This document shows, piece after piece, positions 9,348 through 43,164 of a DNA stretch of 64,000 nt. Positions within the stretch are counted from its first letter, which is position 1. Each line of letters opens with the position of its first letter. The translations under genes were made by a program, and so were the position numbers. The DNA is from Bimuria novae-zelandiae CBS 107.79 (lineage: Eukaryota > Ascomycota > Dothideomycetes > Pleosporales > Didymosphaeriaceae): assembly GCA_010015655.1 (NCBI GenBank), contig ML976668.1, positions 1,088,066 to 1,152,065 on the forward strand. The letters run 5' to 3'. The notes below the pieces were generated by a model. That model saw nothing but the letters and a program-made list of their open reading frames with translations, had not been told where the DNA came from and did not search any database.

Positions 9348-11190
9348 ATGGCACCTATTAACAATGCAATTAAAAATTTAAAATCGCGTAATCTAGGAGA
9401 ACACTTTACGTTAAAGGAAGTTATTAAGAAATACGAGGTTAACCGCTTAACGCTAGGGCGAAGGTAAAGAGGCGTAACAGCGTCTCGAGAGGATAGATAC
9501 TTAAATTAATAAGCTCTTAACCAATAACAAGAGCTAGAGCTTATATAATATATTATAAAGCTTATAAAGAGAGGCCTTCCTCCTACAAGAGAGATAATTA
9601 GGAATTTCTTATCTAAAGTAGCCTATTAGTAGCTAAGCGATTGATAGGTTTCTCGCTTCATCACTAAACACTAGATCTATATAATCTTAAAGTAGACCAC
9701 CGCCATAGATCGTGTTCGCCACCTAGCTAATTCTAAGTTAAAATACCGTCTCTATTTCGTGCTACTGCATCGAAAGATCACTAAATATTACCTTAAGGCT
9801 CGAGATATATACAATATAAATAAGAAGGGCTTCTTAATTAGCTTAATAGGCAGAAGCAAGAGGATATTTAGTAGGCGTTAATAGGAGAAGAAGGAGGTTT
9901 AAGTATCTCTTTAGGATAGATTACGCAAGTTCCTAACACTCCTAGCCTGCTACTACGCTAATAGGAGCTCGCTACCTCTAAGCCTTATCTACGCAGCTAA
10001 AAAAGGAGCTATATAATTAAGTTAGGTAGAGGATATTAAGATAGGAGAACATAAGGTCTTTGTCTTATTATCTCTAACAGGCTAATTAAACGACGACATA
10101 GGCCTAGCTTAGCTAGAGCAGGTATTTAATCGCTATATAAAGCAGCGATTAGGGAGATGGCAATTACTTATTCTTAATAGCTATAGATCTTATGTCACGA
10201 TAGAGTTTATTAACTACTATAATTGCCACAGGATCCTCCTTATAATCCTTCCCCCCTATTTAACTTATACGCTCTAGCCGCTTAACGTAGTGCTATTTAA
10301 GCCTCTCTCTTAAGCTTATTTTAATAAGCTTACTAACTATCTCTATAAGGCTTAAGGTCTTATTCTAATTAAGAAAGGAGACTTCTTTTTACTCTTCTAG
10401 AGCGCCTAGATATCCTCCTTTACGGAGAGCCTTATATTAAAGGCCTTCGAAGCTACTAGGATCTGGCCTATAGATGCTAACGTTATCCTCCATAGATTTG
10501 CTAGCACGCCAGAAGCTAAGAGAAGCTTATTATTAGGGCTCTCTAATTATAATTAGAGAAAGATAGATTAATTAGTTTAAGCTACTATTACTAATAGCTA
10601 TTAGTATAAGGTAAGAAAGCTACGTTTAGGCGTTTACTATCTCTTTATTTAGAATAAGCTTTTAAAGCATAAGAATAAGGGCTTAAAGGAGGCTCTTTAA
10701 TATAAAAAGAAGCATAGGAAGAAGGGCAAAGCTCTTAACCTTTAATAGCGCTAGGAATATTATAGTAGCGCTATCTACTAGTCTCCTCGCAAGCTACGTA
10801 AGGCTCGAGCTAGAGAAGTAGTACAGGAGCGAGATAAGATAGAGGAGAAACTTTAAAAAGCACAGGCTAAGAAGCAGCGCGAGGAGGCTTAACTATAGCG
10901 TTAAGTTAAGCTTAAAGAAAAGCGTATAGAGAGGTAAAAGCTTAAAGAGATAAAGGAGGTTAAGTAAGCTAAGAAAGTAGCTAAACGCGCGCGTAAAGTT
11001 AAAGCTTAACACTAAAAAAAAGCTATTTAATAAGCTTAAAAACGCAAGCAACTAGCCTTATAAGTAATTTTATTAAGTAATAAGCGTTAGAAACGCGCTA
11101 GCGCTGCTTACGCTAGTATTTAAGCTTAAGATAAGCTATTTACTACTTTACCTAAAGTTACATTACGTGGCCGCAATATTAAGCTCTCGA
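9348..11190 (+). pseudogene. Fot1-like transposase remnant
   Basis: It starts at ATG 9348 with MAPINNAIKNLKSRNLGEHF and is open for about 39 codons. After that TAG/TAA stops accumulate. The HTH (TLKEVIKKYEVNRLTLGRR), the linker with PPTREIIRNF, the DDE core and the Ala/Lys/Glu-rich C-terminal helix can all be followed in order. The characteristic last residues GRNIKLSSR are at about 11172-11192. The minus-oriented element at 11198 is inserted directly after them. It is non-functional. Confidence 0.75.
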
Positions 11191-12342
11191 GTAAATAACG
11201 TGTCCGTGCGCGTGCCGAGCCACTTCGCGTGACGAGCCACCCAACACCATAACAGCTCATGCAAGAATGAGGCTGCAGAACCACCCATAAACAATATTAT
11301 TATAAGATTTTCTACTAGGGTAGTCAATCGATAGCTGCGATTAATTTGCACTACTTAACTCTATCTGGAAGCTTGACGTCGCGGCCGCTGCGTGTAGATT
11401 TGCTCGGGGCAGTAGATGCGCCCTCTGAGGCCTCCCCAACATCTGTAGCATCAACAACACGTTTTGGACGCTTTCTGCTCTGTGCAGATGGCTAAGAAGC
11501 CTTTCTCTTACACCTTTGGGATAGTTGTAGAGCTTTTTCTGCGTCGCGGGCAGACTTCTAGGCGGCGCGCTGAGCTGCCTTTTCAGCCCTCTCCTTCTCC
11601 TTCGCCTTCTTAGCTGCCTCTCGCGCATCACGCTTTTCCTGCTACATTTTCTCCTTATATAGCTTAGCTACCTTCTTTAGCTCTGCTATTTTTACTTTTT
11701 AAAGCTACTACTGCTTATCCTCTTATTCCTTAATAGATTGACGAACACGTGCCTCCCTTACCTTCCTTAGTAACTATAAGATAGCCCTACTCTAATACTC
11801 CTAGCGCTATTAGAGATCTAGAGTCTTGCCCTTCTTTTTGCGCTTCTCTTTAATAGATAGTGCCTGCTTAATCCTATCCATCTCATGCTTAAGTAGCTCA
11901 TTTTGGACAGATAGGTGGTGGAGCGATTAACGAAGCTTCTTTGTATCTTGACTACCCTGATCCTTTACTGCTGATCGTACAAGCCTATCTATCTTTCTCT
12001 AGTCATGATCGCTAAGCCCTGATGAGGAGTTATCGCCTAATTCTTGATCCTGGGCGAACCTATCTAGGATAGGATTAGGATCAGGTGGCTTGGTTAGTTG
12101 GTTAGTATTCATTTTACGTCTCTTTAATAGGGATTAAGTCCACCATCTCGCCTCCCGAAGGGCATATACGACGTGCTAAGCTATGGAATTACAGTACTAA
12201 CACACTACCCTAGAAAGCATTTCTTGCCTGCGCGGGTATTACTACCATTTCGGAACTGCAGCTCCCCTTCCAGTTAGGGAGGCTGAGCGATGTATGTACA
12301 TTAGGGTGGTTTCCTTGCATTTTGAGGCATCTATGTGCTAAG

Positions 12343-12398
12343 AGAGAGAGAGAGCGAGTGTGTGTGTGTGTGTGTGTATGTGTGTAGGGGGAGGGGAA
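12343..12398. repeat. (GA)n/(GT)n microsatellite in the LINE 3' region
   Basis: A run of GA dinucleotides is followed by a GT run and a G-rich stretch. It lies downstream of ORF2 when the LINE is read on its own (minus) strand, so it appears as CT/CA repeats in the 3' untranslated region. Confidence 0.7.
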
Positions 12399-12525
12399 AG
12401 AGAGGAAGAGGGGTAGGGAGTATTATAGCTATTATGCTGGACCTAGTTCTTGCTAGGTGCTATATTGCTTGTTGCTGTTGCAGGGCTGCAGGAGCTAGCG
12501 GGGACAAATCTTGGTGTAGTACTAT

Positions 12526-15500
12526 GTGAGTTGGGTGAAGGCTTCAAAGGCCTCTGGATCCCCTAGCAGCACCGCAGTATACGCCAGGCCGTTAGCCCGG
12601 CTGGATAGTGGTGTAGGTGGTCGAAGTGGCCATCTACTAAAGGCCCCTAGGGTCTTGCGGCAGAGCGCAAGGTGCTCTAGTGTCTTGTCCTGTCCGCATA
12701 AGCAGGTAAGGTTTGCATCCTTATGGTTGTACTTTTAGTAGTACCAGGCAAAATCCCCATGTCTAGACCGGATAGAAAGCAGTCTGGCTAGGATAGCTCT
12801 TAGTAGGTCTAGTTCCTTTAGACTGCTGCGTGGTGCATAGTCTAGGTGCTAGCTTTTATACCATCTAGAGAGTTTGTTCTTTTTGTCAGACCACTAGATC
12901 TACTATGTATGTTGTGATGTCTTGCGGGCAATTGTCTTAATGCCTAAGAGTGTAGGCAGAGCAGCTTTACCCGTTAGGGGTAATAGGTGTTAGGCTTCTA
13001 GGTTGGCTAATCTGTCTGCTGCCTCATTTCCTTCAATGCCTAGGTGTCCGGGGGCCTATTTAATAGAGACGTCGTGAGTCTCCATAGCGCCATGGCACTC
13101 CAAAAAGGCCTATTGAGAGGTAGGGGGTGAATCGCCCCTTAGGCACTATATAACTGAGGTGCTGTCTATACACAGCCAGATTTAACGGGTATTAAACTCT
13201 AGTTGTCTTATAGTGTGCTAGAAGCCTCTCTATGCTCCTACTGCCTTAGCGTTAAAGACGTGCGAGGTAGAGTTAAGTGACCCGCGTCTAGTCTGCAATT
13301 ACTTTCTATTCTAATACACTATAAAGCTATAGGTCACCCGCTTTTCTCCTTCCTTTATGTACTGTTCAGAGCCATCTGAGAAGATAGTCACGTCTAGTGG
13401 TAGGAGATAGGCCTACTATATATTAAAAGCTTTAGCTGCAGTCTTCTTGTCTATGCCAAGCGTTGGGTTAGTTCGGCAGCTAGTTGAGTAGTGAGGGGCT
13501 GTGAGTATAGTCCTAAGGATCTCTAGTAGAAGAGATGCTATCTGTTGGACTTTTGTCTTAACTCGCTAGGGTTATCCAGTTTTTACGCCCTTATTTACTA
13601 TATGTACTAATGTGCGCCTAGTAAGAGGATGGTCTGTATTTATAGTTTGCAAGTAGGTTGCAAATCTGAGTTTAGCTTCCTCTAGTGCTACTACTGTAGA
13701 CAGTAGTCTGGCGTCTCGAAAGAGTGTAGCTGTAGGGGTTATTCTTTACGCTGGTAGAATGCCCCTTGCTGCTATGGCTAGTGTCTTGTCTATAGTAGCT
13801 ATATGCTATCTAATGTAAGCGCTGACCTCTTGAGGCCTGCCTGGTTTGAGTGTATGTGGCTGTTTAGTGCGGCCTCTGTACCAGCATTCAGTCCTATACA
13901 GAAGCGACGGGTATACACAGGTAATAGTGGCCTTGCGGAGGGAGCTAGCTGGTGGTCTATAGGTAGTCCTGGCCAGACTGCAAATATAATAGGCTACCCT
14001 AGCAGCTTTTGCAGTGCGTGTGGCTACATGTTATCTAAAGGTAAGTCTGCGGTTAAACCACACTCCTAACTAACGCAGGGCTGGCTGGCTGTGCTCTCTA
14101 CCTAGGAGGATAGGGTAGATCGTGAGCTACTTATCTATAATATATGGTGGTGCGTAGCTGCTTCGCTGTCTAGTTAGGTGTATTATTTCCTGCTTTTCTA
14201 GGGTAAAGGTAACCTTATTAGTCTTGCCCCATGCTCTAATCTGCCTTAGATCTGATGCTAGGAGCTCGACGTTGTCGTCTATAGAGTGTGAGGCCCAGTA
14301 TAGACATATGTCGTCTGCATATCCAAACCTCCGTTCTGTGTCTATAGATAGTAGCTCTGCTAGGTACAGTGTATATAGGACAGGGGAGAGAGGCGAGCCT
14401 TGGGGTGTGCCACAGGCGACAGGGTAGCTAGGGGTAGTAACCTGTCCAAGGCGGACCCGAACCCTCTAGTTAGTAAGGAATAAGTCTATAAAGAGCATGG
14501 TCCTTTGTAGCCAGCCCTGTTAGGCCATCCGGTGTAGCAGGCGGTTCTTAAGGAGCGCATCAAAGGCGCCTTAAATATCTAGGGTAACCATAGTAACATG
14601 CTTTCTAAGTACCTATGCTGCTTTAGTGTCGTGGGTAAACGCTGCAGTAAGGTCTGCTGTAAAGCGCTTTAGAAGGGCGCCGCTATGCTAGGGGCTAAGG
14701 ATCTTATATATCATGGCGGTCCACGTAATTTGTCTAGCTACTATTCGTTTAAGTCCCTTTTTAATGCAAGAGAGAAGCGCTATAGGTCTCTAGGAGCGAG
14801 GTAATGTTTAGTCTATCTTCCCTGTCTTTAGTATTATTGCTACCTTAGCAAGCTTCTACTGTGCTAGGAAGTGGTTGAGCTCAAGGCATCGCTGGAAGAT
14901 TCTTTATATAAGTTCCCTAACCTGAGCCTAGCAGGCACGGAGTAGTTATATAGTAGAGCGGTTAGTGCCTGGTGAGGTGCTTAAGACTCCTACTGTGTTT
15001 TGTTTAGTTTCCTCTAGTGAGATGTGTGTGCTCCACGGGAGGGCATCTGCATTCTCTTGGTCTAGGTAGTGTCTGAGGTCATCCTCTGCTGTGTACTAGT
15101 TAAGGACTTCCTCTCTAAGAGCCTCTACCTTCTCTAGGGGGTCTAATATTGTCCTATTGTTCACGATAAGAGGAGTGTCCTGGTTCTCTAGTGTGAGCTT
15201 ATACTAGGTAATAATCTTAAACAGGTCCTTATTATCCTTAGTATTATTAATAACATGCCTCTAGTACTGCCTCTTAGCCTATTGGACGGTAGTCTTGAAG
15301 GCCTGTCTCTCCTCTAGTAGACTGCCAGAGCAGAGCAGCCTAGCATATTTATAGGCCTAGTAGGCAGTTTTGCACTCCTTGGTCTACTATGGTGCAGCGC
15401 GGCCTTCCTTGCGGTCGAGCTTGCCTGCTGTCTGTACAGAGTGCTGTATGGTCTCTGTGAGCAGCGTGACGCATTCCTCTAGCTATGCTACATCCTGTGT

Positions 15501-16328
15501 TGCAAGCGGGTCTGGGATGTTCTGGACACCTATTTCTACCAGCCCAGTGAATTTAGGTAGGCTTGCCTCGGGGACTCTGTAGTGGTACTGTTCTAGATGC
15601 GGAGTGCCTGGTGTGGAGAGAGGGACAGAGGTTACTATTATCTTATGGTCTGAGCCGCTGTGCATGCTAGCATTAACAGTAAACTGGGCAAATAGGATAT
15701 TAGAGAAGGTAAGGTTAAGGATATAGCTAGCGCAGTGTGTTAGCTGCCCTAGCACACTAATGTAGTCTATAGACGCGTTAGCAGCCTATCTAGCTAGCTC
15801 TACACCTCTGTTAGCTGTAGTAGTGGTAGGCTTAAAGGATTTATGTCTAGCGTTGAAGTCTCCTCCTATAAGGCAGAGTTGAGGGGGTATAAGATGTGTG
15901 ACGTATTAGATAACGTGTAGGGTGTGTGGCTGTCTATAGCAGTTGAGTATTGTTACTCTATTTACTATAGCCCATAGCATGTCTGGGTGGTTAAGGCTCT
16001 CTCTAGCCTGGTATCGTAGGTAGCATCCTTTGCGGATGTAGGTTATCACCCTAGGGCGGGCTAAGCCTGGTGTGTTGGGGCTGTCCTAGGTGCTAATGGG
16101 TGCTAGGTGTGTGAAACTAGGGTGGGTGGAAGTTCTTAAGTTGGCATATGTGAAGGGCTCTTAAACACATATAATATCTATGCCCTTCTAAAACGCTACC
16201 TCTAGTATTGTGATGTGCTAGGGTAAGCTCCTGCTAACATTAGCCTAGCATACACGTAGTTATTTGCTTAACAGGCTAGGCTGTTGATGCCTGGTGTTGG
16301 CTAGGATGTTGTAAGGGTGTTCTAGCAT
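12526..16328 (-). pseudogene. LINE ORF2: endonuclease-RT-RNase H polyprotein, RIP-broken
   Basis: The start ATG at 16328 reads MLEHPYNILANTRH. The endonuclease shows GGDFNARH near 15860 and the terminal SGSDHKI near 15650. The reverse transcriptase shows QGSPLSPVLYTLYLAELL and then GYADDI near 14320. RNase H shows FSDGSEQ near 13380, CIDS, and GNEAADRLA near 13020. In the second acidic position, NAKAVGA reads Lys where Glu is expected. A C-terminal CLCGQDKTLEHLALC (about 12675-12720) is the zinc motif common in fungal Tad-like LINEs. Numerous TAG/TAA stops make it inactive. The C-terminal limit is approximate. Confidence 0.85.
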
Positions 16329-16612
16329 AATAATGGCGGGTTATCGCTTATGCTGGCGTCTTCCCTCTCCGAGGTAGACGGGTTAGTGTAGATAGTTAAT
16401 TGTGGACAAATGCTGCCGGCAGATAGTTGTTCTACATTAAGGCTCCTTTGGCCTGTGGCGGCCCGCCTTGGTCTCTTTTCTCTGCCAGTAGTAGAGGAGG
16501 ATGCATAGGAGGCAGTAGTTATGGGAGGTGTAGCCCTGCTTTCTCCTTCTTGCCTCTGGGCAGAAAGGTGGGAAGGCACTGTCTCTAATACCTCTATAAG
16601 AGGAGCCTCAGG

Positions 16613-17881
16613 CTAAAGTGTTGCCTGTTTAAGGGCCACTTTAACTATCCTGTAGAGGTGCTGCTGTGCTATTTTGCCTACGCGACGGATAGCCTTTAGC
16701 TTAGTCTTTATAGGCTTAGTAATATGTCTGTTAACCCGGCGAGGAGCTGCCGGGCAGTTAGTGTGACTAGCTAGATAAGGGCTATAACAGTTGGCACACA
16801 TAGCTTTGTGGGCGTAACTGTCTCCGTACTATTCTTGGTGTCTATCCGTGCGGTCCCCGCAGTGTGCACAGCGGGCTACTCGGGTATAGCGGGCAGCGTT
16901 GCAGTAGCCCTGGCAGCCTGGGTTATGTCGCTATATGGTGGGATGCTTGTAGATTTTCTTCGAGAATTGGCTAGTGCTAAAGAGCCGGAACGAGCGGACT
17001 GGCTCCTTGTATGAAACGATTCAGGTGGTAAGGCTATGCTGATTCGCCCCATGTCGTGAGGTCCTGCAACTAACTAGCTACTTACCTATTTACAAGCAGA
17101 CCTCTTTCTCTACTAGCTAGGTAGTAGTTAGTAGTTCTGTGCTGTCCAGGGTCTAAAAAGAGCTAGGTACTCCTTGTACTGCGTAGTTAGTCCAGCGTTC
17201 TGGGATCCTCACCGCGTCTCCGTCTAGCGCTCTTACTAGAAGTTCCTGGTTTTCTTAAGTTAGAAGTTGGCCCCGGATGTTCTTATTTGCTGGGGTAATC
17301 GCCCAGCCTGTGTTAATTAGTGATGCGGTAGGTATGTCTTTAAGGGTAAGTTCTACTATACTCTTGCATATTGCCTGCCTTACTATAAAGAGTAAGGGTT
17401 GTTGCAGTCGCATTGCCGGGTTAGAGATAGCTACGAATATTTAATTATCTTCTTTTAGCTTAGCGGGCGGGTTGGGCCGGGGCCTAGTAGGGATTAGGGG
17501 TTGACTGCCACCCCTATCTAAGATCTAGGGGTCTCTAGCTACGTCCGCCTAAGAGCGGCGTCCTAACTCTTAGCTCCTAGGGTTGCTGTGACTGGTGTCG
17601 CTGCTCTAGCGGGAGCTAGGGGGGGAGTTGCTTAGGGAGAGCGAGGTTAGAGCCTAGATAACTCTCTACTGTAGCTCCTTAGCAATCTTAGCCTCTTAAG
17701 GATTAGTGTAGCTCTCTGCGTGTTGGTCTACCGCTGCTACGAAAGCCGTAGTAATAGTGTTCTATAGCTAGGTAATCTGCTGAGTCTTGGTAATATGGCG
17801 TTGGACGGCATTAGAGACGCGAGGTTTGGGAGCGCCCCCACTAGGGTTCTGGCTACTTAGAAGGGGTGCACGGTGATGCAT
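16613..17881 (-). pseudogene. LINE ORF1: gag-like nucleic-acid-binding protein
   Basis: A frame starting at ATG 17881 carries several RIP-type stops and ends at TAG 16613. It contains two or three zinc-knuckle motifs (CQGYCNAAR, CAHCGDRTDRH, CANCYSPYLASHTNCPA) followed by a basic region rich in Lys/Arg. This is the architecture of ORF1 in Tad/I-type elements, where it binds the RNA template. It lies about 280 bp upstream of ORF2. Confidence 0.7.
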
Positions 17882-19539
17882 GTCCTCCTGGGGCTGTCTT
17901 GGGGCGCGTGTATAAAGCTGCTGAGGGATCACAGGGTCTGGGGACCCTGTGTGCTAGGAGGAGGGAGACTCTACTATCCTAACAAGCTCCTTTGCGCGTC
18001 TGCGCGGAGGGCTAGGCGGACGTTAGAGGTACTCCTAGAATCAGCGCAGTGAGCTTGTTCAGTTGCTGGGATTATTAGGGTCTTTAGAGAGGATATCTAA
18101 AAATCGAAAAGTTGGTGTTCGGTGTAGGATCAGGTGGCGATATGCCTGTGGCTCTAAAAGAGCTAAAGATAGTTGATTCCTTGAAGGAGGCCTTCCACGC
18201 ATTCTAGAATAAGGGGAAGAAGTTGTCTTTAGTAATAGAAGCTAGGCCTTGGCTTCTATAAAGGTATTGTGATAGCTTTGCTGAGTATACTGTTAATAAA
18301 GGCTTAAACATCGCAACGTTAAGTAGCTAAAGCGTATAAGTTGAGTAAGGAGGCAGGATAGTAAGCAGGATCCTATACTTATTATAATAGTTAATAAAGT
18401 CTATAGTGACATGAGATCCGTGGCCGTCTATAATCAAAAGACGATATAATCGTCGAGTCTTCTCTTTTATACAGCAATCGAACACCTGCTCAAGCCAGGC
18501 AAGCCCGATATCGTTATTTATCCAGCCAGAGGATGATAAGGTAATAAAGACTTCATGTTCTCCTGCCTTAATATCCTCTACCCAGCTTGATTGGATGCCC
18601 TTGTTGGCGGCCTTATAAATAAGGCTTGGCGGCAGAGCTGATCCATTAGCGCAGATACATGCCAGGAGCGTGATCTATGCGCGATTGCCATCTTGGAGTG
18701 ATGCCCTAACCTCCTTCTTCTCCCACATTTGTCTGCTGAATATTCTCTTTGATCTACCAACAATACTAATTAGGACGCCTTTTTCATCCATATTGTAGAT
18801 ATAACGAGGATCTATGCGATATTTATCCATCTTATTATGTAGAAGGTTGAAATAGAGGCGATATTTATCTACTGAATTAGCTTTGTGGCGATTGTTGTCC
18901 ATCCCGACGGTCTATTGGGAGATGAGATGAATGCTGTGTCGGTTAATAAAGCGGGTAACCTAGCTCTCGCTAACTGGCTCCTTTGCTATCGTAGAGGCAA
19001 AATTCTGTATTATCTCTCTAGTAGGAGGTGTATGTCTCTTTGTGAGTCCTTTAATATATCGTACAAGCTCCTGCTCTTGTTGTAGTGTAAGTTTCTGCTG
19101 GTTGATATTCTTGGCTTTATTTGGGGCCTGAACGCGCTTGTGTCTTCGGGACAACGTAGTCCGATCTACACCATAGGTAGCCGCTATTTTTCTATATGAA
19201 AATTTTTCTCCTGGATCCAAAGATTGAATAGCTTCAATCGCATCTTCAATTGCCCCCATATTGGTGGAGTTACGACGCGTCAAAGTTAGTGAGTCTTTCA
19301 GTCTTTAGGTGTTGGATGGCTCGTTACGCGAAGTGGCTCGGCACGCGCACAGACACGTTATAATTAGTTTAAATTAATCGCAAGAGTCGATATAGTGCTT
19401 CACTAGAAAATCTCATGATAATAGCTATTGTACGTGGCTCAGTAGCCTCACTTTTGAAGTGGTGGATATGGTGTTCGGCGGGGCACGAGGTGTCTCCGGG
19501 CATGAGCTGTCCGTGCACGTTACGCGCACGGACACGTTA

Positions 19540-29012: not shown

Positions 29013-29281
29013 ATGGACATTCCTATGCTGCCCGTCACACCCTGTCGAGTGACGAAGCCTCCCATGGCTCGTACGCGTCTTGCATGTAATCCAATGTAGG
29101 CTCCAAGCACATGACATCGGCCAACGCTGTCTAGCGTCTCAGCATCCTATACTAGTCGCGTGATACACCAAGCTCACCATGTTCTAGATTTCGCAGCGGA
29201 CGAGCAGATCAGCCGCAGGGTCCCTAGTTTCTTGGGATGGTGCATTAGCGGGGACTTAGTCGAGGGCGGAGCAGCTTGGTA

Positions 29282-31408
29282 CCCTGCTGAGACAGTCAGT
29301 GCGCCGCGACACTAACGCGCCACCCCAACACCAGCACCGCAGCCAGCAACATAAGGCTGTAGAGTTTTACACAAAAGCTTTTATCGCGAAATTTTCTAGA
29401 GTTAAGATTTTATAGAGCTGTAGAAGATTGCTAGCTAGTTAAATTATAAATATCTACTTAGTGTTCTAATTATTTAGCTACTACGCGATGCTGGCGCTAA
29501 TAGCGTAGATATTACTACATTAACGCGTACAGATGCCGGCGTAGGCTTCTTCCTCTTTATAATTATATAAGTAGCTTTTAAAGTATTCTAGCTTCCCTTT
29601 TTAGCAATTTTAAGACATTTTTAAAGTTGTTATTAAGCCTTGCGAGCCTGTTAATAGAGGCGTTACTTAGTAGCCTAATTAGCTTTCTCCTTAGCGCGCG
29701 TATTTCTAGCTACTATACGCGTAACACGCTTCTTTTATAGTAGATAAGCTTTAAGCTGCCTATTTACTATTTAGATCTCTCTCTACTTACTTTTCTAGAG
29801 TTGTAGTTGTTACTTTTTAGCCTTTTGTTAGCTGAGAGAATCGCGCGCCCTCTGTACGCGGGCAGGTGATTAGAAAATAGATCCTCTATACTACTTATCT
29901 AGCTACTTAAAAGGTAGAGTCCTGCCCTTTATTTAACGCCGTTTCTGGTTTGTGAGGGCTTCTCGTAGCCCCTAATTCTCATGCTCTAGGAGCTGCTTCT
30001 ATATAGAGATTAAGTGTATAGTGCGACTTAGCTTCTTGGCCTTATCACCTCCCCCTGTATTAATAACAACCTTTAAAAGCCGATTAATTTTGCGCTAATT
30101 AGACGCGCTAAGTACTAAAGTAGAGCTTTTACGCAATCTCTATTCTAGAAACTTATCTTTATTAAATTAACTAAGGATTAGTGTAGGATCTAGCGGCGAG
30201 ATACCTATATACTTAAAAGCTTTAGTAATTAATTACGGCGTAACTAACGTTGTCTAGGCCTTCTAGAATAGTGTAAAGAAGTCTCTTTTAGCGATTATTA
30301 ATAGCCCCTAACTCTTATACAGGTATGCGGAGAGCTCGTCGGAGTAGGTGGCAGAAAGAGACTTAAACACATAGACGTCTAGAGGCTACAGCGTATAAGT
30401 GGCGTGAGGGGGAAATATCGCAAGGAGGATCTTTTTCTAATTATAGTAGTTAATAAAATCTATAGTAACGTGAGATCTATGCCTATTAAGGACTAGGAGT
30501 CGCTATTGCTGTTAAGCCTTCTCCTTAGTATAGCAATTAAACACCTGTTTTAGCTATTAAAGCCCTATCTCGTTGTTTAACTATCTAGAGGTTAATAAGG
30601 TGATAAAGACTTTATAAGAATTAATGTTAATTTCCTTAACCTAGCTTAATTGTAGAGTCTCAGCGTTAGATCGATAGATTAGTAATAGATTAACAGTAGA
30701 TCCATCGGCGCATATACATGCGATGAGCGAGATCCACTCATGACTACCATCCTGGATAGATTGCCTCACTTGGCGACTCTTATATATAGGCCTGTCGAAG
30801 ATCCTTTTTGACCTGTCGGTAATGCCGAGTAGGAAGCCTTTTTCGTCCATATTATAGGTATGCTAAGGCTCTATGCCATACTTTATAATTTTCTTATATA
30901 GAAGCTTAAAGTAGAGCCTATATCTTGCGCCTAAATCAGCGTTATAGCGATTACTATCTAGCCTAGTCGTCTATCGCGAGATTAGGGAGTTAGGGTAGTG
31001 CCTAATAAAGTAATTAACCTATCGCATAGAGATATCCTTTTTAGTAATAATTAATATAAAGTTTTAGATTATCTAACGCGTAGGGGGTAGACCTTTCTAA
31101 GTAAAACGCTATATATACTATAGGAGCTTAGATTCTTGTTATTAGTTAAGATTTTAGCAAGTCTATAGTAGCTGTGTACGCGCCTGCATGGCGCGTCTAT
31201 GCCGGCGCGTTAATGTTGACCGCACAACACCAAATTCTTCTGCAATTTTTCTATATGAGAAAGTTTCTCCAGGTTCTCGTGAGTCGATAGCGATGATTGC
31301 AGCCTCAATCGGATCCATATTGGTGGAGATGCGGCGCGTCAAAGTTGAGGTGCTACATCTGTTGGGGTGGCGCGTTAGTGTCGCGGCGCACTGACTGTCT
31401 CGGCAGGG
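29282..31408 (-). mobile_element. Fot1-like transposon with near-perfect terminal repeats
   Basis: Ends begin CCCTGCTGAGACAGTCAGTG (left) and CCCTGCCGAGACAGTCAGTG (right, complement) and match 48 of 49 positions. TA lies at 29280-29281 and 31409-31410. The 2127-bp element has its transposase on the minus strand. The interior carries many RIP-type stops, but the terminal segments, including the first about 50 codons of the transposase, are untouched. It sits in host DNA and holds no further insertion. Confidence 0.93.
29400..31318 (-). pseudogene. Fot1-like transposase, intact N-terminus, RIP-broken core
   Basis: ATG at 31318 gives MDPIEAAIIAIDSREPGETF, then the HTH SYRKIAEEFGVVRSTLTRRH, open to 31163. 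A second open stretch (30850-30641) reads MDEKGFLLGITDRSKRIFDR, which holds the first catalytic Asp. Between and after these the frame has many TAA/TAG stops. Domain order matches the copies at 9348 and 19259. Confidence 0.8.
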
Positions 31409-31745
31409 TACCAGCGGAGCGGAAACTTGGGAGCCGGCGGAGGGGGCGGACCCACTACCGTACGTCATTATCGAAAGTTGCCACTTTCAAGCAAACCCGG
31501 GGGAGTATGGGGATAATCAATTAGGACGTCGCCGGTCGTGACGTTCGCCATGACCAAAGAGTGTGCCCCGCCCCACTTGCCAAGCTGCCACGTCCAACAA
31601 AACTTGGACACACGCAGGGAACGTTCCAGCGGGGACGATGCGTGGAGATTCCAAGAAGCGTCTATGTCATTCCGCCCCTCTGCGGACTCGACTGCCTCGA
31701 CGGCGCTACAGGAAATACTCTGCTCACATGCGCCTATTTTTGGGA
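31409..31745. other. Host spacer between two transposon blocks
   Basis: About 340 bp of GC-balanced DNA separate the Fot1-like element from the piggyBac-like nest. Overlapping short frames in all phases show no motif. No gene is called. Confidence 0.4.
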
Positions 31746-32483
31746 ACCTTTATCCCCCGTATGGCCAAAATCTGCCGCACATGGGCTACATAGAAATAGC
31801 TAATTGGAGCTTTGCTCCGACTTCTAACGAACACTAAAGGAGATTAGATTTATATATAAATTTATATAAAGACTTAATTTCTTATAGTTTTTTAATAAAA
31901 CTACTTAATAATTAAGCTTTAAGAAGTATTATTTAATATAATTATTTAATAGCGCTATAAGTACTCTTGCTAGCACTTAAGACGCTCCTCTAGCCTATAT
32001 AAAGGTAGCCTATACGCCCTATAGCTAAAGCTACTGCGCGGAATACGTGGAGGAGCTTTATAATTACTAGAAGTAGTCTTAAGAGGCTGCCGTGAGGGTC
32101 CTGAGTTGTGTACTTTACGCCTAGACGTCGCATAATATACACAGGTCTTGCCCTCTCCAAATAGCTTTATAGACGTGTGGGAGCTGCCAGCGTCGCTGAC
32201 GATATTGTCTACATGCTAACGTTTGTTACTGTTATTACAAAGTCGGCCTCCGCGCTTAAAAAGCTACTTAATTAAGATATATAGGAAGTTTTCATAACCC
32301 GTCCTTTTTATAAATAGCTAAAATAAGTATAATAATAGCTTATAGGCGTTATTTAGTGCTAAATTAAGTAAAAAGTAAAGTAAAGGATACTAAGTATGCT
32401 ATTTAGCCTACTAAATAAAATAATAGCTTTTATATTAATTAAATTAATTAACCTCGCTTTTATAAGTATTATAATTATCTATT

Positions 32484-32655
32484 TGTGGCGCACAGTCACA
32501 ACGATCAGGGAGCTCGAAAACAAAGTCTATTAAGGAGAGGAAGCTCTATAATAACTAGTTATTTATAAGTTTAGGGGATCGCGTGCTTAGCTACTTAGCT
32601 ACTTAGCTTAACCCTAGCTAGCGTAGAAAGCTCTAATAAAGTATTTTTTATAATA
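32484..32655 (-). repeat. 172-bp LTR, left copy (3' LTR in the inferred orientation)
   Basis: Matches 41457-41628 over its full length with only transition differences. Its last bases TTATAATA correspond to TTGCAACA in the other copy. Preceded by the target duplicate CTATT. Confidence 0.85.
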
Positions 32656-33284
32656 TACCCCCTAGCTTATAAAGTATAGCATAATAAGCTAAATAGTAAC
32701 TTAAAGTATAAAAGGTAGCGAACTTGCGCGTAAAGCTTAAAAAGTGTCTAGTTTAGATTTCTAGCTTACTAGGTAATTAGTCTAAGTAGCTAGTTTATAT
32801 ATAGTTCTAAAAGAAAGGTAGAGAAGAAAAGGGAGTAGCGTACTTTTACTATAAAGCTTTAATAAATATTTAAAGGTAACTATTTACTTATAACATAACC
32901 CGCGCGAGTACCTGCGTAAAAAAGTAAAAAAAATAAAAGGAGTAGTATACTTTTACTATAGAGCTTTAATAAATATTTAAAAGTAATTATTTACTTATAA
33001 CGAAACCTATGCGAGTACCTGCGTATATAAATATAAAAAATAAGTAGCTATAAAATTATAGCGCTTAGCTAGTAAAGGCTTACTTGCCTATAGGCTTACT
33101 ATAATCTATACTTTAATATTCCCTAAAAAGACTAAAGGAGGGTCTACTATCTACCTTTTATATTTAAGCTTAGTTAATAATACCTTTTACTAATTCTTTT
33201 AAATCTAGCTTTTAATTTCACTAATCTTCTTGCTTATAAGCTTATTATAGAGCTTATAAGGAGCTTCTTTTTAAAGCGCGTACT

Positions 33285-33670
33285 TGTAACAGGAACAATC
33301 GCTCGTCGACACGAGAACCCTTGGCCAGTCAAGACAGGATTCGAGATCATCCGAAAACCGACACTCATCCGTATCGGACCAATTTCGGATCTATCAGACC
33401 GATGGGGAACTACGAATCCGATTCAGACCTATTTCGGATCCATCAGACCAACGGTCAACCTATGGCAGTTATGTGCTAGCTAGCTATCTAGGAAGAGGTG
33501 TATTTAGAGGAGCTTAGGGCCTTTATAGTTTAGTACCTTTTCCGTATCCTTTCGTACCAGGCCTATAGGCACTTAATTTATTCGAGGCTACATTCTTATA
33601 CACGCACTCTCACATGCCTTTGCTAAGAGATATGCTAATATTAATCCTTTAAGTGACCTGCGCTAATACA
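33285..33670 (+). repeat. 5' LTR of the Ty3 element
   Basis: 386 bp, same length as the 3' copy and the solo copy at 4972-5357. Differences between copies are transitions. Confidence 0.93.
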
Positions 33671-33889
33671 TTATACAGAAAAGGTCGCTATCGCTAGTAA
33701 CGGCTTTAAAGAATATTACTACGAGAACGGAACGGACCCGCGTTAGCGCGTCCCTAGTTTTCTCTATAGGCAGGATTCTAGAGACCTCCTGCTAATTAAA
33801 GCCTTTAGGTTTAGAACTCCTAATTATAGATAAATTAGGTTAACTTTAGAAAAGTCGCGTAAAGTTGCGCCAAGGTAGAAAAGTGGTAA

Positions 33890-35065
33890 CTACTAATAAC
33901 CTATAGACTTAAAATTAAACGTTAATGTCTGCTTTAGTATCGTTAAAAACGGCACGGCAGGCGGCCTGGAGTTGGACTTAAGGAGACCATTAGCCACCCC
34001 TAGAACCTTTAAAGAGCGAAGAAGACGAAGAAAGCGATAATACTTTAAATAATCCTATTATTAGACCTAAAACTAATTTAGTTTAATCCGCTAACCTAGT
34101 AATAGCTTTTTAGAACCAATTACGTCAAATGCAAGCACCACTAGAGTAATTAACTAGAGAATCCTAAGCTAGGGACTAAGCCCGGCCTATAATTAAATCA
34201 CCCCTGATAGTCCTCCGATACCAGTCCGAATCTCCCGCCACTATTATGGCAAAGCTATCCGAGCGAACTCCCAAGATAGAATCCCTAATTAATAAGAAAG
34301 AACCTACCTTTCCTTAATAGTAAGCATCAATTAGGGACTGTCTTAAGATTAACGCAGATTACTATCCGAGTGAACGCGCTCGCATGGCATTAGTATAGGG
34401 ACATACTTCTAGTACCGCTCGCGAATATTTGGAACCCTAGTACCTAGCTACTTTAGATACGTTACGGTTTAAGAATGCTGAGGAGATAATTAAACTACTA
34501 TTATCCTTCTTTATATCTAGTAACAAGGAAGCTAAGTACCGGACCACGTTCTAACGCTTAGAGATAACCTCTAAGGAAACTTTCCCTACCTTTAAGGCTA
34601 AGTTTATTAGTGCAGCAATCCGAGGCAGAGTTTATAAGGATAAATAGTCTCTATTCCTATAGGAAAAGATAACACCATCCTTAAGGGCTCTAAATATAGG
34701 GTTTAAGCACCTGTGGAATAATTCCTTTAAGAAAATAGTGGCCCACCTAATAGCCTTTAACTTAGAAACGCGGAATGCACTAACAAGTCCCTTTACCTAC
34801 TTTATAACTAGTACAAATTAACCTCTGCGTCAGAAGAACTATAAGGAAGAAATTCACCCTAGTACCCTAACTAAGATACTATACAGGCCTATTAAGGAAT
34901 CTACTCTAAATACGCCCCAAGACAGGACAGTCCTGCCGTCGTAACCTCTAATAACACAAACAAGTTCTAACACTTGCTATAACTACAAAAAGTTAGGACA
35001 CTTTGTTAAAAATTGCCCTCAACCCCGCGTCCGCGAGATTAGAGTGGAACTAGACTCTAATTAAG
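33890..35065 (+). pseudogene. Ty3 gag remnant with damaged zinc knuckle
   Basis: The capsid-like part can be read through stops, for example RDCLKINADYYPSERARMALV and KETFPTFKAKFISAAI. The nucleocapsid box near 34975-35020 reads CYNYKKLGHFVKNCP, where the CX2CX4HX4C pattern has its second Cys replaced by Tyr (TGC to TAC). That is a RIP-type change that would abolish zinc binding. Start is approximate. Confidence 0.75.
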
Positions 35066-35139
35066 AATACGTTAATGCGGATAAGGAAGCATCCCCGGGA
35101 AACGAAGACGCCTAGGAAAAGCCTCCGCCCTAGGTATAA

Positions 35140-38100
35140 GCAAGTACGACCTTTCTAATATAGATTTATCGAAGTTACTAGGAGGTCCTCACTTTCGAAC
35201 CCCCCTCGTACTCTATTTAAACGGGTACGGGATCTAACTTAATACCCTTGTTAACACTAGTGCCTAAGGTTTTCTTTTTATTAATTCTTAAATTGTAGCT
35301 TCTTTATCTTAGTCCCTTTATGTTCCTATCCAAAAACTACCGTACCGCATTATGGTTCGAGGGTTCTCGAATAAGATTCGTGCCCTAGTGGACCAATACA
35401 TTCGTTTACACATAAGGATAGATGGGCGAACAATCCGTAACTACCCCTTTATAGTGATAGACTTAGGAACACAGGACTGTATCTTAGGACTCTAATAGCT
35501 TAAGCGCTTTAAGCTTTAATTAGATATAGAGCAGAATTAGATCTTATAGCTAGCAAAGTATCCTAAGACCTACAATCCCTCTAAAACTATCTTAATGTAG
35601 CTAGAATAACTAATTTAGAACTTAAAGGTGCAGCAAGACATTCGTCGCCAGGATATCCTATAGGAACAGGAACAATATCAGATGAAGAACAGCCCCACAG
35701 TTAATTACATTAAGGGCCTTATTCGACTGCCTCATCCTCTCCCTCCAAGTAGGAAGACAGTACCCCTAATTTCTCAGGATCCCGCTCCAAAACCTGCCCG
35801 TTCCGCATCCGCTCCGCAGGCGATGCGGATGCCCACAATTACTCTTATCTTAGCAAACGCCTTTCACTTTAACATGAAAAAGCTAGTTAACGAATTCTTT
35901 ACTACTTCTCTGTACGAAATCGAACGCCTGTTAGACTATATACGAACTTAACGCTACGCTAAAGATCCTAAGAATACTTATCTTATTAAAGAACGACTTC
36001 CCTAGATATACTATTAGTATTAGGATGTGTTTAGTAAGACTGCGGCCGATAAGCTGTCCTCGCGCCAACTATATAACCATAAGATTATGCTCACTAAACC
36101 CCTTCCAAACAACTACAGTCCTCTATATAAATCTAGTCTAGAAGAACTAGAGGCCATTAAAAAGTACGTTCTAAAACATCTTTAAAAGGGATTTATTAAG
36201 TATAGTCGAAGCCCTTTCGCGTCTCCTATCCTTTGTGTACAAAAGCTAAACGGAGATTTTCGAATATGTGTAGACTATCGCAAACTTAACCTTCTGACCT
36301 AAAAGGACTCCTACCTAATTCTAAGAATTAACGAACTTTTGGCTCGCCCCTCTAAGGCTAAGATATTTACTAAATTTAATATCTAAGCTGCCTTTAATAA
36401 AATTCGCATAGATCCTAAATTAGAAGAGTACACTATATTTCGGACCCGATACAGATCTTACAAGTGCAAGGTATTGCCTTTTAGGTTGTATAATAGACTA
36501 GCTACCTACCAGCGATACATAAATAACATTCTTATTAATTATCTCGATAACTTTTGCATTGCGTACCTGGATGACATCCTTATTTATTCCGACACCGTCG
36601 AGGAACACATTAAGCACGTTTAGAAGGTGTTAGATCGTTTCTAGAAAGCCGGCCTCCAAGTTAACATCCTCAAAAGTGAATTCCATGTGACTCGGACCCG
36701 ATACCTAGGTTATATCCTTACCAATACTGGTATGGAGGTAGATCTAGCCAAGGTAGAAGCACTACGGAACTAGAAAGCCCCTACAACCGTAATAGGTGTG
36801 AAGTCGTTCCTTAGATTTGCTAGGTTCTATTAGTAATTTATTAAGGACTTCTCCTATATTACGAAACCTATTAGTACCCTGCAAAGTCCTTAAATCCTAT
36901 TTAAATAGAGTTCGGAGTGTGAAGTTGCCTTCTAGTAAATTAAACAGGCGTTACTGGCTATCCCCACCCTCTATTACTTCGACCCTGAACTACCTACTAG
37001 GGTAGAAACAGACGCATCAGACAGAGTAATTGCAGGAGTACTATCCCAGGAACATCTAGATGGAAAAGTTCAACCAGTGGCATTCTACAGTCATGTCCTA
37101 ACCGGATCCGAACTAAACTAGGAGATCCATAATAAAGAATTATTCGCTATTATTACTGCCTTTATTAAGTAGCGCGCAGAACTCGCTTCTACCTAAACTA
37201 TAATCTAAGTTCTTTTAAATTATCAATCCTTAGAATACTTTATAACTACTAAGGTCCTTAATGCTCGTTAAGTTTGCTAGTACGAAATGCTATCCTCGTT
37301 TGACTTCTAGATCGAATACACGCCAGGTAAAAGCAACGCTAGAGCTAATATCTTAAGTTAACGAGAATAAGATCTTACGGACTTTAAGGCTATTTAAAAT
37401 GATAATCGTAGCCGAGTATTCCTAGGGCCCCATCGACTTGACCCCCGAATTAACTCCGACCTGGCCTAGACCTACATTAAGAAGTCTAATGCCGAAGTCG
37501 ACGTGTTCGCCTTATTAACTAATAAAGACATTATAAGTCTAGATTCTTATTAACTTATTAAAGCCTTGCTGCAGGAGAACCGCCTCGGATTTATTACAAA
37601 ACGCCAGTCCCTACTAGAGAAATATTAGATTTATAACAGTCTTATTCTATACAACGACAGACTGTGCGTCCCTCCCGAATCTACTCTGTGTACCCGCCTT
37701 ATCCGGGAAATCCATAATTAGAAGTCAACGGCTTATCCAGGTTATACAAAAACCTACTAGTTGCTCTCTCGAAAGTACTACTAGAAGGGAATAGAAGCTA
37801 CCTATAAGCGGTATATATAAAACTGCATTCCCTGCCAACGTGCACACCCAAGGCAGACCCCTACTCTAGGGTTTTTACATCCGTTACCTATCCCTAATAG
37901 GCCTATACAACATCTGTGTATCGACTTTAAGGAATTTCCTAAGGACAGGGCCAGATACGATTAGATCATGGTAGTTATCAATCGTTTGTCTAAACAAGTA
38001 GTATCTATTCCTTGCCATAAATCAATTAATGCCCGCGAAATGGCTAACTTGTTCGTATAATAGGTGTACTAATTCGGACACACTCCGGAGTCTATTGTCT

Positions 38101-38985
38101 CTAATCGAGGTCCTCAGTTTATTTCCACATTCTGGTCGGAGTTTTGTTAGATTATAGGCGTTAAAGTGAAGCTATCTACCGCGTACCATAAAGAGACAGA
38201 TGGCCAGACAGAAATCATAAACAAGTATATCGACCAGAGGCTACGCCCCTTCGTATCCTACTACCAGGATAACTGGAGTTCACTTCTACCCCTGATCGAT
38301 CGAGCGCAGGTTACTCTACCCCATTTGGCTATTGGCATGTTACCCTACCAGATCCTGTATGGCTCCGAACCCCGTTAAAGTTAGGATTGGAATCCTACCT
38401 TATTCATCAAGCCCCAGGATTATTTAAATATTAAAGATACTTAATTGCTAGCCAAACGAATGCATGCCGCTTGGCAGCTAGCGAAGGAAAATATGGAACG
38501 AGCACAAGACTAAATGCAATCCGTAATCAATTAACACCATCGCCTAGTTAACTAGAAAGTTGGCAATATAGTCTACCTAGACGCTTGCAACCTTGCAGTG
38601 TCAAGACCCAGCTAAAAGCTGTCTAACAAGTAGGAGGGCCTATTTAAAGTAATAGAACAAGTTAGTTACTTATACAGACTTAAACTTCCTTTAGGGTCCC
38701 GAATCTATAATGTCTTTGCTCCGAATCTCCTCTACAAAGATCCTCAAGACCCACTACTAAGACAAGAAGCTCCAAAACCGCCAGGTGTCCCTATTAATAG
38801 AGTAGAGGAATAGGAAGTTGAGGAGATCTTAGCTAGTAAGCTATCCTAAAATACCTTTAAATACAGAGTTAAGTAGGTAAGACATAACCTAGATCCAGTA
38901 TAGTACCCTGCATCGAACTTCATGGGAGCCCCCTACAAGTTAAGATAATTTCACGACAAGTATCCGAATCGCCCCGGACCTCCAA
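35140..38985 (+). pseudogene. Ty3 pol remnant: PR-RT-RNH-IN-chromodomain
   Basis: Protease near 35250 reads VNTSA-GFLF where a V-D-T/S-G/A core is expected. RT reads [24 protein letters not shown] and YLDDILIY (about 36565). RNase H follows with VETDASD near 37005. Integrase has a zinc-binding CIPCQRAHPRQTP near 37840 and LCIDFKEF. It then has VSNRGPQF (Asn at the second Asp position) and YHKETDGQTE with the Glu. The end reads EVEEILASKLS then KYRVK and YPASNFMGAPYKLR, a chromodomain. Such domains steer integration to H3K9-methylated heterochromatin. Many TAG/TAA stops. Confidence 0.88.
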
Positions 38986-39093
38986 AGGCATTGAGTCAGT
39001 GGATTCACTCATAGGAACAAGGAACAGAGTAGCAGGCCTAAGAGTTTTGAATTCTAATAGTACAAGAAAGAAAAGAAAGAAAAAAACAAAATT

Positions 39094-39686
39094 CTACTCC
39101 TTATCTGAATTAGAGGGCTTAGGTAGAGCACCCTTAAGGGCAGCAGGCGCCTTCCCCTTCCCCTTACCCTTTCCCTTCCCCCGACCCCCCTCCGAAGCCG
39201 TCCTTATAGTGTCATGAAGATCATCCACTGCCTCCTCCACACGCCGCAGACGATCCTCCACCCGCACAGAAGCAGAATGCTGCGCGAGCAGCAATTCCAC
39301 AGAAGTCAGCACAGCCTCACCCGCCCAGGTGACCTGCACAATTATGCCCAGGTCCTTCGCAGCCTTGTCGAGCGCGGGTCGGAGGTCAGTAGCGTCCTCC
39401 CCGCTGGCCCCCTCCTAATCCCGCAAGGCCCTCCTAAAAGTCCGAAATTCGGACTCTACGAAGTCGGGCACCTACCTAATCTGTCATCGAAGCGGACTAG
39501 AATTAGAATCGCTATACTTACAAGGTTGCACGTCTCGTTCTAAGAGGTGCAGTAGCTGCACTTTTTGGAGGACAGCTTAGGGAACTTGTAGTTGGGCACG
39601 TTGCCGCAACCAAACGCACGCACACAGCGCAGACAGATAACTCGGTACTCTTCCAGAAGCGCTCCGAGAGGAGCGCGGATAGGCAT
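39094..39686 (-). pseudogene. Antisense intron-containing gene inside the Ty3 element: zinc-cluster-like plus coiled coil
   Basis: On the strand opposite to gag-pol, an ATG at 39686 opens exon 1 (39686-39522). Then comes a 41-bp intron (39521-39481; GTAAGT donor, CTAAT branch site, ACAG acceptor) and exon 2 (39480-39094). The phase is preserved and the total is 183 codons. Residues 18-53 hold six cysteines spaced C-x2-C-x5-C-x15-C-x2-C-x6-C, close to a fungal Zn2Cys6 cluster. Residues about 95-150 look like an amphipathic or coiled-coil helix (VEDRLRRVEEAVDDLHDTI). The tail is a Gly-Lys repeat. Three in-frame TAG codons (49, 58, 77) are each one transition from CAG or TGG. GC stays near host level, unlike pol. 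I do not know its function; a regulator or host-derived passenger gene is possible. Confidence 0.65.
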
Positions 39687-40111
39687 TGTGAACTAAGATA
39701 GCTATTAGCAGCACGAACACCTCCGAGACGGTCCTAAATACCTACTAAAGTCGAATTGTTGTGGGTTAACGAAGAAAGAACTAAGTCCTTAAAACCTACC
39801 TCTTTATGCCTCGCCAATTGCGGCTCTGTTCATTTATAGAAAAGAGCGACCCCTCACCTGCAAACACTTACAAGATTACATTATATGGGCATGCTACGTA
39901 ATTACGTAGCTACTCCGAACATGGTCCTGTTCAGGTGGCTACGCGCACAACCAGCGAAACAAGATAAACGGAAATTAACTAATTAGTAGAGTTATAATTA
40001 CTACCGCAACATCACTAACTGCGCTGGTTGCCAGAAACAGCTAAAACGCGCGAAACAATTCACACACGGCATAGATAAGGGACTATCTGCAAGTTATAAA
40101 GGAGGGGGTAG

Positions 40112-40497
40112 TATAACAGGAATAATCGCTCGTCGACACGAGAACCCTTGGCCAGTCAAGACAGGATTCGAGATCATCCAAAAACCGACACTCATCCGTA
40201 TCGGACCAATTTCGGATCTATCAGACCGATGGGGAACTACGAATCCGATTCGGACCTATTTCGGATCCATTAGACCAACGGTCAACCTATGGCAGTTATG
40301 TGCTAGCTAGCCATCTGGGAAGAGGTGTATTTAGAGGAGCTTAGGGCCTTTATAGTTCAGTACCTTTTCCGTATCCTTTCGTACCAGGCCTATAGGCACT
40401 TAATTCATTCGAGGCTACATTCTTATACACGCACTCCCACATGCCTCTGCTAAGAGATACGCCAACATCGATTCTTTGAGTGACCTGCGCCGATACA
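40112..40497 (+). repeat. 3' LTR of the Ty3 element
   Basis: 386 bp, preceded by the polypurine tract and followed by the GTACT duplicate. Its terminal TG is mutated to TA. Confidence 0.93.
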
Positions 40498-40502
40498 GTA
40501 CT

Positions 40503-41100: not shown

Positions 41101-41456
41101 CTTAAGCTATTATGCATAAGACTTGCCTTTAGTATTTATATTTAGTAGCTTTAGAGCCTAGTCGTGTATATTTATCTACTTAGAAGCCTTAAGGTTAATA
41201 TAACTTTATATTTCTTAAGCTTTTACGTAGTACTTAAGCTACGCGTACTAAAATAGAAATAAATTATAATTTATAAGTTAGTTACTTACTAGGAGCTTTA
41301 TAGTAGTTATTATATAGTTTAGCTCTATTATAGGTTATAAGCGTCGAGACGTGAGCGTAAAAATAATAAAGAGTAAAAAATAGTTTACTACTATAATTAT
41401 TAGCTAGTGTAAAGCAAGTATATTATAAAGCGTTATAAAAATACTAGGCTTATAAT

Positions 41457-41628
41457 TATAGCGTATAGTTACAACGATTAGGGAGCTTAAAAATAAAGTC
41501 TATTAAGGAGAGGAAGCTCTATAATAACTAATTATTTATAGGTTTAGGGGATCGCGTGCTTGGCTACTTGGCTGCTTGGCTTAACCCTAGCTAGCGTAAA
41601 AAGCTCTAGTAAGGTGCCTTTTGCAACA
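41457..41628 (-). repeat. 172-bp LTR, right copy (5' LTR in the inferred orientation)
   Basis: Partner of 32484-32655. Its first bases TATAGCGTATAG correspond to TGTGGCGCACAG with RIP-type changes. Followed by the CTATT duplicate. Confidence 0.85.
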
Positions 41629-43164
41629 CTATTATTATTAGTATTTTTAATAACTTAATAGTGTTATTACTAAAAGCGTTTATAAAGATCTTCTAGTTAT
41701 TTAATACTATCTTAAAGCGTTAATAGAGCTTTTCGACGTATTAAGTAGCTATATAAAAGTTAACACTATACTAAGTAATAACGTTAATACTTATAATTTA
41801 TAGCTATACTAGTAAAAAGTATAACCTAATTATTTTTTAAACCACCTTTAGTATTTTTTTTAATGCTAATAGCGCCTAGCGTATTTCTTTTTACTTTAAG
41901 GGCTACTAAGCGTGTATTGTTAGCTATATAAAATTAATGTTAAAGCGCTCTTTAGATGGCTTTTTATAGGTAATAAATATATTACTTATTTAAAATTTTA
42001 TTTTTATAGCCTACTTCAAGATCTCTTTTATTATTATTTTTATTATTTTAATAGTCCTAGCGCAGCCAACGCCTTTAGATTTAAAATATTTAAGTATAAG
42101 TATTATATTAAAAAGGTTATTATTCTAGATAATATAATAGCTAGCTAAAAAAAGTCTTTCTTTAGCGTTGTCCTTAGTAAGTATAAGAGTAATAGAGATA
42201 AGCTTTATTAAAGTTAAAAATTTACTAGTAGCATTAGCGTTAGTAATTTTAATTAAATTAATAGATTTTCTACTATAGGTATAAAAAAGCTAGTTAAGTA
42301 TTACTTTATTATTTACTAAATACTAGATCTTATAGCTCTTAGGTATAGGCTTTATTTTAATTATTACTTTTTCTAACGCGTGTCTAGTAAATTTTATAAT
42401 TACCTTATTAACGTAAAGGTACTTACTAGGTATCTAGTATAATAGCGAGCGCTTGCAGAGAAGCTAAAAAAGATCCTAAATATAGCTAAATAAAAAGTAA
42501 AAACTCTACTCTACCTTAGTATAATATAGGTATTAATCTAGTACTACTAGCGCTGACGGGATATAAAGTTATTAATTTTATATATAGAAGTGTTTTAGTA
42601 GCCCTTCTCTTAGCACTCTACTAACGAGGGCTCCTAGTAGACGCCTATATAAATAATAATTATAAAATACGTATATAGCTTTATTAAAGATATTAGTTTC
42701 TAGCTATAATAACTACTAGGCGTTACTACGCGGAGCGCCTTAGTATACTAATTTATATAATATACTATATAGCGTATAATGTTAGTAGAGAAGTAAAAAT
42801 TAAATAAGATAAATAAATTATTATAATTAATATTTTTTGGTAGGTAAGCCTCTCTAAAAATATATAAATTACTAATACTAAGAAGTTTCTAATTAGGTAG
42901 TAGATTTACTAGTAAGTTAGGCTTTTTAGCGTTAAATTTACTATATTTTATATATTTTATAAAGTTAAGATTATTGCTAAGTAGGCTAGTAGCTTTTAGC
43001 ATGTTTATAAGTATAGGCAATTTTAAAAAAAGGCGCATTTTAGCTAGTAAATAGAAATTACTAATATCACGATATAGATTTGGTGTTTACTTGGCAGCTG
43101 TCCTGATTGGCCATTTCCATGTGGCCCGTGTGCGGCAGATTTTGGCTATGCGGAGGATATAGGT

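Follow-up and report, generated by a model that had tools for sequence, protein, structure and literature searches.

Genes that lie between pol and the 3′ LTR of a retroelement and read antisense to it are already known, and in fungi they are represented by brtn of Boty. This gene was reportedly described by Zhao et al. in 2011, in Boty-like Ty3/gypsy elements of Botrytis cinerea and Sclerotinia sclerotiorum. Outside the fungi, the human retroviral gene HBZ of HTLV-1 is spliced and encodes a bZIP protein. Published accounts add that HBZ is an antisense gene whose protein is nuclear (PMC11963269), that the gag-pol of Boty-like elements includes a chromodomain (PMC4227169), that the start of brtn is missing from one Botrytis consensus (PMC8365987), that the antisense gene of the plant element Grande has its own promoter and a nuclear product (PMC7264820), and that the TRP28 domain of Retand is probably DNA-binding (PMC11963269). 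PMC7264820 describes the functions of antisense genes in this position as not known.

Here we describe a gene of this kind from a window of 64,000 nucleotides of the Bimuria novae-zelandiae CBS 107.79 genome (contig ML976668.1, positions 1,088,066 to 1,152,065). It resembles brtn in being an additional, antisense gene in a fungal element, and may be kin to it; no Botrytis protein was among the three matches obtained at E up to 1, in a search that depends on shared words. The Botrytis consensus that has lost the start of brtn (PMC8365987) parallels a short lineage described below. To Grande gene23, RIRE2, Retand ORF4 and PvRetro13 ORF2 the likeness is one of place and orientation. These are plant elements, however, and the protein described here has no Pfam match above cut-off, with no TRP28 or SMC domain seen at that level. 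HBZ, a different protein from a human retrovirus, serves as an analogy only. The gene itself was not found in the titles and abstracts searched, in which subscription journals are thinly covered.

Judged from its sequence, the gene consists of two exons that carry splice signals and are separated by an intron of 50 nt; its frame is conserved between two element families, where it occupies the same position, and the protein has relatives in other records. We consider it, with a probability of about 0.9, to be a resident protein-coding gene of the element.

The element and the gene model

The features of the window copy are collected in Table 1. A single Ty3-type insertion spans 33285–40497, both LTRs included. 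Since the target duplication flanks the entire element, a separate nested element was rejected as the source of the gene. Only transitions distinguish the two LTRs; the one transversion in their comparison is a flanking base that lies beyond the LTR. RIP indices are high, and the window copy is a dead, mutated relic. Pfam recognised the integrase in a piece of the sister copy L011 (Integrase_H2C2, 1e-18; rve, 7.4e-15). The Chromo match on the same piece is weak (E 0.0019; 18.5 bits, under the curated cut-off of 25.1), and the corresponding piece of the window copy gave no Pfam chromodomain match. The host element is probably of the Ty3 chromovirus lineage. The initial annotation was right that gag-pol ends upstream of the antisense gene; its end point near 38985 was too early, as the pol match extends to ∼39029, which leaves 67 nt to the beginning of the matched antisense frame.

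Table 1. Features of the element in the window copy (window positions)
Feature	Position	Strand	Comment
Target-site duplication GTACT, left	33280..33284		Exact 5-bp duplication
5′ LTR, 386 bp	33285..33670	+	
gag-pol	34000..39029	+	Many stops; integrase, then weak chromodomain match; left boundary is a rough guess
Antisense exon 2, 126 codons including stop	39094..39471	-	One in-frame stop in window copy
Antisense intron, 50 nt	39472..39521	-	GTAAGT...TAG
Antisense exon 1, 55 codons	39522..39686	-	ATG at 39686; CX2C...CX2CX6C module; one in-frame stop in window copy
Segment missing from 18/40 aligned copies	39625..39940		
Stretch from antisense ATG to 3′ LTR, 425 bp	39687..40111	-	Presumed promoter and 5′ UTR, from position only
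3′ LTR, 386 bp	40112..40497	+	
Target-site duplication GTACT, right	40498..40502		

The two-exon antisense frame reported by the initial annotation at 39686–39094 is present, keeps phase across its intron and ends in a GK-rich tail; its length and splicing needed revision. The corrected model has 180 codons rather than 183, and an intron of 50 nt (39521–39472) rather than 41. The acceptor is the TAG immediately 5′ of GTGCCCGAC. Among 40 copies scored and aligned from 52 candidates (22 long and 18 short), the TAG preceding GTGCC is invariant, while adjacent sites vary, and the intron is 50 nt long in every one, as it is in all five second-family copies read. Of these five, L041 has TAG as its acceptor and the remaining four have TAA. 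The donor in the 40 aligned copies is GTAAGT in 20, GTGAGT in three, ATAAGT in 14 and ATAAAT in three, and the last two forms could be products of RIP. The boundary is also marked by a database protein from Polyplosphaeria fusca, P0002, in which the exons are joined at the corrected position (..KCNP-IPDY..) with no extra residues. The three codons added by a 41-nt intron are absent from this junction, which argues for the 50-nt model. Thus two of the three in-frame stops first counted stand, both at positions that are sense codons in some other copies, and the third is the splice acceptor itself.

Exon 1 measures 165 nt in 21 of the 22 long copies. Exon 2, which includes a helical region, a VTxAGEAGLTxxELLLAQH motif and the GK-rich basic tail, measures 378 nt in 15 of them; in the others it is 417 nt (one copy), 222 nt (three), 377 nt (two) or interrupted by an assembly gap (one). 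The GC content of the gene exceeds that of pol, as the initial annotation stated (0.567 versus 0.413 in the window copy, with the same direction in all eight copies measured). An intron on the antisense strand is left unspliced in the genomic RNA and so is retained by new copies. Its retention in all 40 copies indicates that a spliced antisense mRNA was never the template for any of them.

Distribution and relatives

Searches of the same genome returned 61 DNA matches, 110 protein matches to the exons and 92 matches to a second-family query, which merge into 55 gene places. At 50 of these the end of pol lies just upstream on the opposite strand, at a distance of 58–131 nt in 42 and up to 349 nt in eight. 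At L042, L043, L045 and L046, pol pieces were correctly placed and oriented (by blastn or tblastx; by tblastx alone for L043), and the 55th place, on C87, is unread. Seen from pol, the gene stands beside 48 of the 51 pol matches with at least 55% identity, and beside 52 of 150 overall. It accompanies three of 14 matches at 41–54% identity, the remaining 11 being short chromodomain-only matches, none of three at 35–40%, and one of 82 below 35%. This lone case is the neighbour of a place already counted, since two of the 52 positive matches share places (50 places). No antisense gene was found in the elements at C73, C18:647616 and C60, whose pol is 37–40% identical. The gene is therefore present in other copies of the family in the same place and on the same strand, and in two element families.

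The second family (B; that of the window copy is A) was read at L041, L042, L043, L045 and L046. Its pol shows 62–66% DNA identity to that of family A where aligned by blastn or MAFFT, and its antisense protein, compared exon by exon, is 29–51% identical to that of the window. LTR pieces ∼80% alike lie downstream in L045 and L046; near L043 there is a family-A LTR in the opposite direction.

Beyond this genome, the window frame by itself found no relatives when used as the query of a protein search. They emerged only from alignments that included less mutated copies and the second family, which at E up to 0.01 returned three proteins. P0002, of Polyplosphaeria fusca (Pleosporales, Dothideomycetes), has 175 aa and 55% identity over the query (E 1.3e-36); P0003 and P0004 have ENA as their source. 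With the limit raised to E 1, a second search gave P0002, P0004 and P0005 but not P0003. In P0003, V-S follows ..KCNP, the reading expected from an unspliced GTAAGT-like donor. The basic tail is shared by both element families, P0004 and P0005.

Some further observations concern other repeats found in these searches. L036, L037 and L038 (C169, C98 and C58) have equal match scores, lie near three contig ends and have lost ∼52 codons in frame; they probably stem from duplication of a chromosome end and not from three insertions. A query with the 5′ LTR gave 447 candidate places in the genome, of which 40 were scored, with at least 41 matches, so that LTRs far outnumber gene places and many are probably solo LTRs. 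Short matches to the chromodomain end of pol, with 45–56% identity, occur at about ten further places and at L047 (529–1155) and L048 (415–1068), the latter two at C13:800846 and C54:102010. They fall mostly within stop-free frames of ∼230–240 codons in this RIP-ridden genome. At two of three such places read there is an open frame (208 and 217 aa) that starts KR-rich and ends like a chromodomain; the third, L049, has no such ATG-started frame among ORFs of at least 120 aa. These frames are perhaps a host gene family derived from, or related to, the chromodomain of the element.

Selection, the short lineage and competing explanations

Because RIP does not make transversions, these were used to look for selection on the frame, with the window copy as the reference (REF) in pairwise codon-position comparisons. 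In exon 1, 13 of 17 transversions between REF and L046 fall at position 3 (p 0.00034), and 12 of 21 between REF and L045 (p 0.021). The shorter exon 1 of L042 and of L043 was excluded from this main test, and each gave 3/3/12 over the three codon positions against REF. In the first 270 nt of exon 2, comparison of REF with five family-B copies placed 34–36 of 61–68 transversions at position 3 (binomial p 8.9e-5 to 0.0015), where DNA identity is 42–51% and individual positions may be misaligned. Pol, as control, gave 143 of 242 (L041) and 64 of 112 (L046). The comparisons of REF with family B share branches and so are not independent. A position-3 bias in the antisense frame like that in pol points to purifying selection on the protein.

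Inside family A the picture differs: the counts for exon 2 are 13/14/15, with no bias, as expected if decay after insertion dominates. Between REF and L036, position 3 accounts for nine of 20 transversions in the gene and 37 of 40 in pol, which suggests weaker constraint on the antisense gene there. Together with the position of the gene, its presence in two families and the intron kept in 40 of 40 copies, the codon bias between the families upholds the proposal that the element encodes the gene and carries it along. None of the outcomes named in the initial annotation as refuting it was encountered, although the gene looks less constrained than pol inside family A and the start codon is missing from 18 of the 40 aligned copies.

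The aligned short copies share one common junction, and their deletion takes the ATG, ∼20 codons and most of the upstream stretch of the antisense gene. No in-frame ATG lies between the junction and the next upstream stop in any of the 18. The lineage has nevertheless multiplied, and the gene is thus dispensable in cis. Possible reasons are supply in trans, dispensability of the gene or release from a brake.

Could the gene instead be host cargo? Its GC content above that of pol, and the filing of P0002 of Polyplosphaeria in databases as an ordinary hypothetical protein, would be in keeping with a captured host gene. However, three versions of the query found no host copy in the genome itself (C87 aside), two element families carry the gene, and its position-3 bias between them is about that of pol. 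Capture in general we regard as unlikely, and the recent capture of a host regulator put forward by the initial annotation finds no support, no place off elements having come up in those searches except C87, which is unread, and the gene being common to both families.

Quite unlikely, too, is a function exerted by the antisense RNA and not by a protein, through pairing with the genomic RNA and feeding of silencing or copy-number control. Action of this sort is proposed for the antisense transcripts of plant elements in PMC7264820, and would fit the multiplication of a lineage truncated at its 5′ end, but it leaves unexplained a position-3 bias like that of pol and amino-acid similarity across species, which indicate selection on protein. 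The short lineage is equally the starting point for the idea that the protein restrains copying and that loss of the start released these copies, which make up 18 of the 40 aligned and derive from a single junction. We think this improbable, as their abundance is explicable by drift, age or supply in trans. That the frame is a non-functional leftover, open by chance or through sense-strand constraint, has a negligible chance of being correct: the two stops of the window copy and the unbiased exon 2 counts within family A would suit it, yet the sense strand at the gene yielded no pol domain, splice sites, phase and frame are maintained across copies, and the bias between families and the similarity of the protein across species contradict it. 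A chance frame was rejected on these last two grounds, by which the antisense frame, as a sequence, is more than chance.

The predicted protein and its possible role

In Zn2Cys6 factors, six conserved cysteines follow the spacing CX2CX6C...CX2CX6-8C. The initial annotation saw six cysteines in nearly this arrangement, a claim that fails at two points: the first spacing is X5 and not X6, and the sixth cysteine, at codon 27, is variable. In eight family-A copies this codon reads Cys in REF and L003, Arg in L002, L025 and L036, and Tyr in L005, L021 and L033. Among the 18 short copies it is Arg in 12 and Cys in six. It is Arg in L045 and L046 of family B and in P0003, whereas P0002 has Cys here but is missing a different one of the six. 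Given that decay runs from C to T and from G to A, Arg is the likelier ancestral state in family A; the Cys in P0002 leaves slight doubt. With codon 27 not conserved, the spacing off and no Pfam match above cut-off, a Zn2Cys6 factor was rejected, and from its sequence the protein is unlikely to belong to that class. The motif CX2C-X21-CX2C-X6-C is the better supported module, though metal binding by its first pair is not universal, P0002 having Val at the second Cys of the first CX2C. No credible domain was found in Pfam, NCBIfam or PDB; the best PDB match is to a coiled-coil stretch (E 0.023). In an AlphaFold model of P0002 the exon 2 part is wholly helical, but confidence is poor (pLDDT 57, pTM 0.38).

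These features suggest how a resident gene might work. Minus-strand transcription would begin in the stretch between the ATG and the 3′ LTR, or in the LTR, and the transcript would be spliced in vivo to give a protein of ∼180 residues that carries a zinc-binding module at its N terminus together with a helical pairing region and a basic tail. The tail may bind nucleic acid, and by itself hints at a nuclear location. There the protein could act in trans, with the nucleic acid or chromatin of the element itself as its target, and regulate the element's transcription or aid nuclear entry or integration. On balance we favour an accessory gene of long standing in a fungal Ty3 lineage, arranged tail-to-tail with pol, whose product is an accessory factor. 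More tentatively, and at rather less than even odds, it may belong to an ancient family of spliced regulators that fungal chromoviruses themselves encode, under selection about as strong as that on pol across two families and serving copies in trans, with the start-less lineage living off full copies; it would then be a fungal counterpart to the antisense regulators that retroviruses have. A specific role for the protein as a nuclear regulator is more doubtful still.

In the present case, 55 places and two families within one genome allow the gene to be traced; it has an intron, selection on its protein can be measured, and one lineage carries a natural deletion. The stop-free relatives from other genomes make the function of an antisense gene directly testable in fungi.

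The surroundings of the window copy contain older repeats. Direct repeats (32460–32649 and 41433–41622, 84%) and inverted arms (31746–31804 and 43106–43164, 85%) flank the Ty3 element, which, judged from them, seems to be nested in an older repeat. On its 3′ side, 42281–42314 resembles the element stretch 35874–35907 (79%) and is a possible older Ty3 remnant. Inverted arms of 54 nt at 29277–29330 and 31360–31413, 98% complementary and spaced by 2029 nt, resemble a small TIR DNA transposon. Finally, the region 11000–18000 has a high RIP index (TA/AT 1.6–2.4) despite a GC content of ∼0.43–0.50.
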